NCBI RefSeq assembly: GCF_000003605.2
Contig: NW_003115458.1
Location: 92,128-144,103, forward strand
Source of the DNA: Saccoglossus kowalevskii
Lineage: Eukaryota; Hemichordata; Enteropneusta; Harrimaniidae
Length of the DNA stretch: 51,976 nt
Direction of reading: 5' to 3'
Positions within the stretch are counted from its first letter, which is position 1. Each line of letters begins with the position of its first letter. The notes under the pieces were generated by a model that ran no database searches, was not told where the DNA came from, and worked only from the letters and a program-made list of their open reading frames with translations. Made by a program: the position numbers and the translations under genes. Shown here in pieces: positions 18,237-51,724 of this stretch.

Positions 18237-18309
18237 ATGATGGCTACGCAGTGGAAACTAGTCTCTCTCCTGCTGCTTCTATTATTTACATTGGTACTGA
18301 CCATACCAG
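18237..18309 (+). CDS. Exon 1: signal peptide of the giant secreted protein
   Basis: Two adjacent in-frame ATGs (18237 and 18240) begin [10 protein letters not shown] followed by a run of Leu, then FTLVLTIPG. The 24 codons form a classical secretory signal: one basic residue, an 11-13 residue hydrophobic core, and a small residue before the exon end. It ends in phase 1 at CCAG|GTATGT, matching the phase-1 acceptor of the first EGF exon at 27385. Joining across 9 kb is inference from phase and function; a separate small secreted gene is the alternative. Confidence 0.7.

Positions 18310-51724: not shown

Follow-up and report, generated by a model that had tools for sequence, protein, structure and literature searches.

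A large predicted secreted protein combining VWD cassettes with EGF and FN3 spacers in Saccoglossus kowalevskii

A stretch of 51,976 nucleotides from the hemichordate Saccoglossus kowalevskii (contig NW_003115458.1, positions 92,128 to 144,103; hereafter the window, with positions counted from its first letter) carries repeated VWD-C8-TIL cassettes, EGF blocks and FN3 domains on one strand. Do these belong to a single protein, and if so, of what kind? Our analysis indicates that the gene is real and coherent, while its function is only inferred. The parts are familiar, and their combination with FN3 spacers appears new. Related proteins are proposed to give underwater glues and mucus layers their cohesion, and the FN3 spacers are what this one adds.

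Gene model and domain content of the window

Forty-seven exons on the forward strand (18237-51724) join in a single frame of 7953 nt, corresponding to 2651 codons with 0 stops, as re-derived from splice sites and domain frames by eye and by script. All donors are GT (47/47) and all acceptors AG (46/46), and the product of the window contains 238 Cys residues. The model comprises the following units.

18237..18309, + strand: exon 1, predicted signal peptide, ending in phase 1
27385..31020, + strand: EGF block 1, with EGF1-6 in six phase 1-1 exons
31557..36920, + strand: D assembly 1, VWD (four exons), C8, TIL and TILa; carries GNAH instead of GDPH and Tyr instead of Gln, predicted uncut
37034..37959, + strand: EGF block 2, EGF7-11, with EGF7-8 in one exon
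38328..41417, + strand: D assembly 2, VWD, C8, TIL and TILa; GDPH with Gln
41795..43171, + strand: EGF block 3, EGF12-17, with EGF12-13 in one exon
44010..44763, + strand: FN3_1 and FN3_2, one phase 1-1 exon each, with a C-x8-C half-EGF tail
45199..48089, + strand: D assembly 3, VWD, C8, TIL and TILa; GDPH with Gln, and an additional Cys at residue 1793
48194..48924, + strand: FN3_3 and FN3_4, with C-x8-C tails
49389..51724, + strand: D assembly 4, VWD, C8 and TIL; GDPH with Gln, the TILa exon lying outside the window

The EGF, FN3 and C8 exons are in phase 1 at both ends. The VWD domain is encoded by four exons of phases 1-0, 0-0, 0-0 and 0-1, the TIL exon is 1-0 and the TILa exon 0-1, and this pattern is the same in every module in view. 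Exon boundaries fall in identical alignment columns across the four modules (three for TILa). From end to end, the VWD-C8-TIL-TILa cassette thus forms a single phase 1-1 unit, as do the EGF and FN3 exons. This accounts for a possible shuffling of blocks, and the exon phases point to possible mosaic growth of the gene from phase-1 units. We also considered a chance joining of open reading frames, which is ruled out by the repeating phases and boundary columns among modules. It is very likely that the architecture is as modelled, with a signal-peptide-like start followed by serial phase-1 units of EGF, FN3-half-EGF and VWD-C8-TIL-TILa. The 3′ end of the gene is incomplete and runs off the window.

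An HMM scan of both strands of the window gave 48 matches, all of which overlap model exons (48/48) and 0 of which lie on the minus strand; 46 of the 47 exons were matched, the exception being the signal-peptide exon. The HMMs were built from the model's own exons, so that the scan is circular for those exons and informative on further copies, and it found no further module copies or missed exons on either strand of the window. Rfam at gathering cut-offs gave 0 matches in the window.

Intron 1 spans 9,075 nt against a median intron of 275 nt, and the join of exon 1 to exon 2 across it is putative. On its + strand, the interval 10001-27384 contains a single hydrophobic ORF that starts with ATG (two, nested) and ends at a phase-1 donor, and this is exon 1. 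Over 40 runs, a Markov null produced a mean of 0.025 such ORFs per run, with a maximum of 1; on its reverse strand, the interval holds one such signal-peptide-like ORF.

We searched Pfam at E ≤ 0.01 with the product cut into nine pieces. VWD and C8 were above cut-off in 4/4 modules and TIL in 3/4, module 2 not being listed. TILa was above cut-off in one (module 3) of the three modules with a TILa exon in the window; that of module 2 fell below cut-off, and that of module 1 was listed as EGF types instead. In an alignment, these weak TIL and TILa regions still hold most of the Cys columns, with module 2 lacking two in its TIL. PF00008 found 6, 3 and 6 stretches (15) in EGF blocks of 6, 5 and 6, and all 17 EGF domains have six Cys, with a Cys5-Cys6 spacing of x8 in 17/17. 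Three of the four FN3 domains have their own PF00041 stretch. The exception, FN3_3, gave a model with a mean pLDDT of 88.8 from an alignment of the ten FN3 exons of the contig, and the top PDB matches listed for it are FN3 domains of known structure. The first-pass annotation had counted four VWD-C8-TIL(-TILa) modules, 17 EGF and 4 FN3 domains in 47 exons of one frame, and had seen in them one large secreted mosaic in which EGF, FN3 and VWD are combined in an unusual way; both the count and this description are borne out by the re-derived gene model, Pfam, the EGF Cys pattern and the FN3_3 model. The four window modules share 34-40% identity with each other, so their duplications look old.

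The sequence beyond the gap

The end of the window coincides with the start of a run of 40,151 N. On the contig past this run lie 33 further exons of the same strand, which encode 2143 aa with no stop and comprise the end of one assembly, complete D5-D7, six FN3 domains and the start of a further VWD, after which the contig ends. D5-D7 follow each other in direct series, with no EGF or FN3 between them. One donor is GC, at exon VWD7d (which ends at position 1324 of the post-gap stretch, L014), and the rest are GT; it is the sole GC among the 80 modelled exons. The expected phases were imposed in selecting most of the post-gap exons, and hand placement was used for four, so their phase agreement is not independent evidence; independent support comes from open frames, splice sites and Pfam matches.

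The FN3 exons bear on whether the two sides of the gap belong together. Each closes with two Cys plus two residues, and the spacing between these Cys is x8 in 8/10 FN3 exons on the contig and x11 and x9 in the others. We read this tail as suggesting the last hairpin of an EGF, with its putative disulfide, fused to FN3. In the 572-Mb genome assembly, a first FN3 query found 9 matches, 9/9 on the window's contig (4 in the window and 5 past the gap). A second query found 27, with 10 on the window's contig and 17 on another contig (C3752), where the matches reach no further than residue 95 of the 103-residue query and so do not include the second hairpin Cys. The best matches of both queries lie on the window's contig only. 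The presence of hairpin-tailed FN3 on both sides of the gap, with best matches confined to the contig, argues for one gene, and we consider it likely that the window and post-gap exons form one. The alternative, that two or more neighbouring genes are present, with the window gene ending within the N run and a tandem paralogue supplying the post-gap exons, is the less probable. The 40,151 unread bases could hide a gene boundary, and D5-D7 are closer to each other (44-52% identity) than to D1-D4 (31-41%). Against separate genes, the same FN3 form and the same strand are found on both sides, and D4 lies beside D5-D7 in an unrooted tree of D1-D7 (support 0.99). A genome search with the C8 of module 3 gave 39 matches including itself; the next two lie past the gap, with a match on contig C3134 close behind.

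The product is probably a secreted glycoprotein from one gene; its minimum length is 2651 aa, and it probably exceeds 4,790 aa. The protein would thus be larger than the first-pass annotation saw in the window, if the post-gap exons belong to it.

We also observed an element of ~370 bp in introns on either side of the N run (window about 45981-46348 and L014 about 4806-5162), the copies being 88.6% identical. It looks like a mobile element, and the window copy stops just 5′ of the VWD3c acceptor.

GDPH motifs and disulfides

The GDPH motifs of the window, with the cleavage mechanism described for FCGBP in the available text of PMC10880436, are as follows.

38351..38362, + strand: GDPH motif of D2, predicted Asp-Pro self-cleavage after residue 870
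45222..45233, + strand: GDPH motif of D3, predicted cut after residue 1710
49412..49423, + strand: GDPH motif of D4, predicted cut after residue 2310

In FCGBP, changing the Asp to Ala or Asn, or the His to Asn, prevents or inhibits the cut, and changes to the Gln of FDFQG weaken it, a partial effect (PMC10880436, available text). GDPH and the supporting Gln are all present in D2-D4 and in the post-gap D5-D7. D1 has GNAH with Tyr, the Asp, Pro and Gln being lost, and D8, the last VWD, has GGMH with Asn; both keep only the His of the three. In the PDB search, the FCGBP chains 8r0t_B, 8r0t_C and 8qci_B start at the Pro of GDPH of the D3 and D4 queries, and 8r0t_B and 8qci_B likewise with the module 2 query, as expected of a cut motif. 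FCGBP is also deposited as one 2587-residue chain (8rde_A), which gave seven matched stretches and spans several modules unsplit. The odds clearly favour self-cleavage at GDPH in modules 2-4 and in the three complete post-gap modules, by analogy with FCGBP, and the residues of module 1 suggest that it is uncut. As a mark of this gene alone GDPH is ruled out, being found in 9/18 VWD exons of four other VWD clusters in this genome.

If the FCGBP mechanism holds here, modules 2, 3 and 4 and D5-D7 would fold and then be cut at Gly-Asp/Pro-His in the secretory pathway, and the cut pieces would be held by the disulfide between the first VWD strand and the remainder of its domain. The product would then be a chain of disulfide-closed units with EGF and FN3 spacers between them. 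The window part would give about four fragments on a reducing gel, with predicted sizes after the signal peptide of 846, 840, 600 and at least 341 aa. The number of Cys per module is 34 in D1, 32 in D2, 34 in each of D5, D6 and D7, an odd 35 in D3, and 25 in D4 without its TILa. Extra Cys are found at residue 1793 in D3, 1503 in FN3_1 and 1682 in FN3_2, and may form a further disulfide, within or between chains.

The prediction of three exact cut sites for the window part, and of none for module 1, offers a cheap and sharp test of GDPH self-cleavage as a general route to cohesive secreted matrices. Together with the FN3-half-EGF unit, whose best matches are at this locus only, these predicted sites and the first module that lacks one are the most interesting testable points. 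More tentatively, and at odds well short of even, we propose a single gene of more than 90 kb whose product would exceed 4,790 aa and be pre-cut at no fewer than six internal GDPH motifs, the first and last visible VWD being uncuttable. This would be a new segmented, self-cleaving matrix chain with disulfide-held segments and EGF or FN3-half-EGF spacers.

Relatives and probable role

The best explanation overall is a one-gene, self-cleaving, disulfide-held cohesive or barrier matrix protein that would act like sea-star Sfp1 and FCGBP, to which we give a probability of about one in two; the matrix role taken by itself we would put at slightly under even odds.

FCGBP was the best solved relative of 4/4 modules in the PDB search, by a whole-chain score in which multi-module chains add up. 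Its single-module chain 8r0t_B scored 211, 165, 128 and 165 bits for modules 3, 2, 1 and 4, in every case more than the VWF and mucin chains that hold one module. FCGBP resembles the protein here in its serial VWD-C8-TIL-TILa assemblies, most with GDPH and Gln, but differs in that the assemblies here are spaced by EGF and FN3 domains; we know of no such spacers in FCGBP. It also has an N-terminal IgGFc-binding domain, none of which was listed in the first 269 aa here (E ≤ 0.01). An FCGBP-like component of a mucosal barrier, soluble, self-cleaved and non-polymerising, which binds mucins or microbes in the mucus of skin, gut or gill, is a possible reading, though a minority one. The structural match of all four modules and the direct series of D5-D7 speak for it, whereas the N-terminal domain is not listed, the series is interrupted elsewhere by EGF and FN3 blocks, and relatives in the PDB are so few that "best match" is a weak placement. 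Oyster "IgGFc-binding protein" relatives are discussed, in the text available to us, as mucus and adhesive components (PMC6337334), which also fits this reading.

The first-pass annotation had suggested assembly through VWD disulfides, which stands as one option only, since FCGBP, the best match, is described as forming no disulfide-bonded polymers (PMC10880436, available text). A polymer of the gel-forming mucin or VWF type, linked through D-assembly disulfides, is improbable. CGLCG is present in 4/4 window modules, and the odd Cys number of module 3 would suit such a polymer, but the D1-D2-D′-D3 start and Ser/Thr/Pro region of gel-forming mucins and VWF are both absent from the window part, where EGF blocks lie between the first modules and no stretch is rich in Ser, Thr and Pro (highest 36% in 50 aa). 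A cystine knot was not listed in the scanned window and post-gap pieces, the 3′ end lying outside the data. Zonadhesin, tectorin, SCO-spondin, otogelin, the gel-forming mucins and VWF all share VWD-C8-TIL cassettes with the protein here. Their companions are MAM, NIDO, ZP, EMI, TSP1 and mucin repeats, none of which was listed in the scanned window and post-gap pieces, whereas zonadhesin has MAM at its N-terminus.

A structural glycoprotein of the extracellular matrix or egg coat, put to tenascin-, fibrillin- or zonadhesin-like use and acting on cells through EGF and FN3, is also unlikely, if a little less so than the polymer. Both of the calcium-site patterns tested occur in 7/17 EGF domains, the O-glucose pattern in 9/17 and the O-fucose pattern in 9/17, and these would be at home in such a protein. 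RGD, KGD and LDV motifs are absent from the window part, and MAM and fibrinogen domains were not listed in the scanned window and post-gap pieces (3′ end outside the data), which speaks against it. Tenascins similarly have EGF blocks followed by an FN3 series, but end in a fibrinogen-related domain (PMC11401434, available text) where the protein here has VWD-C8-TIL.

Returning to the cohesive or barrier matrix, its models are adhesive proteins, which we compared from the available text of each source. Sfp1, a protein of 3853 aa that is self-cleaved to four subunits, is part of the cohesive meshwork of the sea-star footprint, and Sfp2 is similar (PMC9382459); VWD-C8-TIL occurs in 3/4 Sfp1 subunits (PMC8621496). 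Both resemble the protein here in VWD-C8-TIL with EGF, high Cys content and GDPH-type self-cleavage into subunits, predicted here from the GDPH residues only. Sfp1 has lectin domains and one EGF, whereas the protein here has 17 EGF and FN3. The flatworm adhesion protein Mlig-ap1, with a proposed cohesive role, combines VWD-C8-TIL, a C-type lectin and 17 EGF (PMC6410801). It shares VWD-C8-TIL and the number of EGF with the protein here, but has one VWD assembly and long Lys/Arg-rich regions in place of at least four assemblies and FN3. The limpet proteins P-vulgata_1 and P-vulgata_2 have vWFD with 6 and 11 EGF (PMC7333891), and oyster IgGFc-binding/zonadhesin-like proteins have vWF-D with EGF (PMC6337334), a set also present in a relative of Sfp1 from a sea urchin (PMC7037938). 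The limpet and oyster proteins are like the protein here in carrying vWFD with several EGF and in their homology to zonadhesin and IgGFc-binding protein; the limpet proteins differ in their Kazal, lectin or TSP1 domains.

By analogy with Sfp1 and Mlig-ap1, chains kept in secretory granules would set, once secreted, to a cohesive or barrier matrix. Against this, those two proteins have lectin domains, whereas Pfam listed none in the window and post-gap pieces, nor, in the same pieces, any of the galactose-binding lectin or F5/8C domains of Sfp1/Sfp2-type proteins (gap and 3′ end outside the data). Given that no lectin domain was listed for the window and post-gap pieces, and given the additional FN3, we do not place the protein in the Sfp1-type adhesive family, nor do we place it in the FCGBP family. 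The matrix, mucus or adhesive role stabilised by disulfides that the first-pass annotation had envisaged is supported as probable by these analogies.

Its further suggestion of an undescribed protein type is not supported in that form, as the modules are FCGBP-like and VWD, with or without C8-TIL, is already established together with EGF in Sfp1, Mlig-ap1 and the limpet and oyster proteins. The architecture is therefore more ordinary than first thought in its VWD and EGF, and remains unusual in the added FN3 and the spacing of the cassettes, which we did not find in print. By word count, "fibronectin" is absent from the main texts on Sfp1, its sea-urchin relative, Mlig-ap1 and the limpet and oyster proteins (PMC9382459, PMC8621496, PMC7037938, PMC6410801, PMC7333891, PMC6337334), and FN3 goes unmentioned in the limpet and oyster texts. 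In the available text of the open-licence papers compared, we found no VWD-C8-TIL, EGF and FN3 in one protein. PMC11797021, as far as its available text goes, has VWD, TIL, EGF and FN3 as legend abbreviations of different panels, with FN3 beside TIR2 and VWD in an SRCR panel, and not as one protein.

Elsewhere in this genome, four multi-VWD clusters (C2922, C3976, C4504 and C2261; L016-L034) carry exons for VWD, for C8 and for TIL, the last single or double; they look like mucin or otogelin relatives. Three of the four have EGF matches 5′ of the first VWD, and an HMM search of the clusters for FN3 gave 0 matches (190 kb, of which 43,328 N). Further contigs with VWD or C8 matches include C3574, C3134, C1345, C999 and more. 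The COX1 contig of the genome has TGA within the reading frame and three tRNA genes in 4.3 kb, as would suit a bilaterian.

Within the window, an ORF at 8852-9175 (−) gave no PDB match but resembles a WD-repeat part of HIRA, and an ORF at 3-437, open at the window start, is largely a 69-bp tandem repeat. Two introns hold copies of a 146-bp element (36552-36697 and 43281-43426; 87% identical). A 33-bp minisatellite of about 22 copies occupies 34881-35623 in the intron between VWD1d and C8_1, with an acceptor-like TATATATTGCAG in copies. Just 5′ of exon VWD1a, about four copies of a 43-bp repeat (31395-31574) duplicate the VWD1a acceptor and the first exon bases, so that alternative acceptors are possible for this exon.
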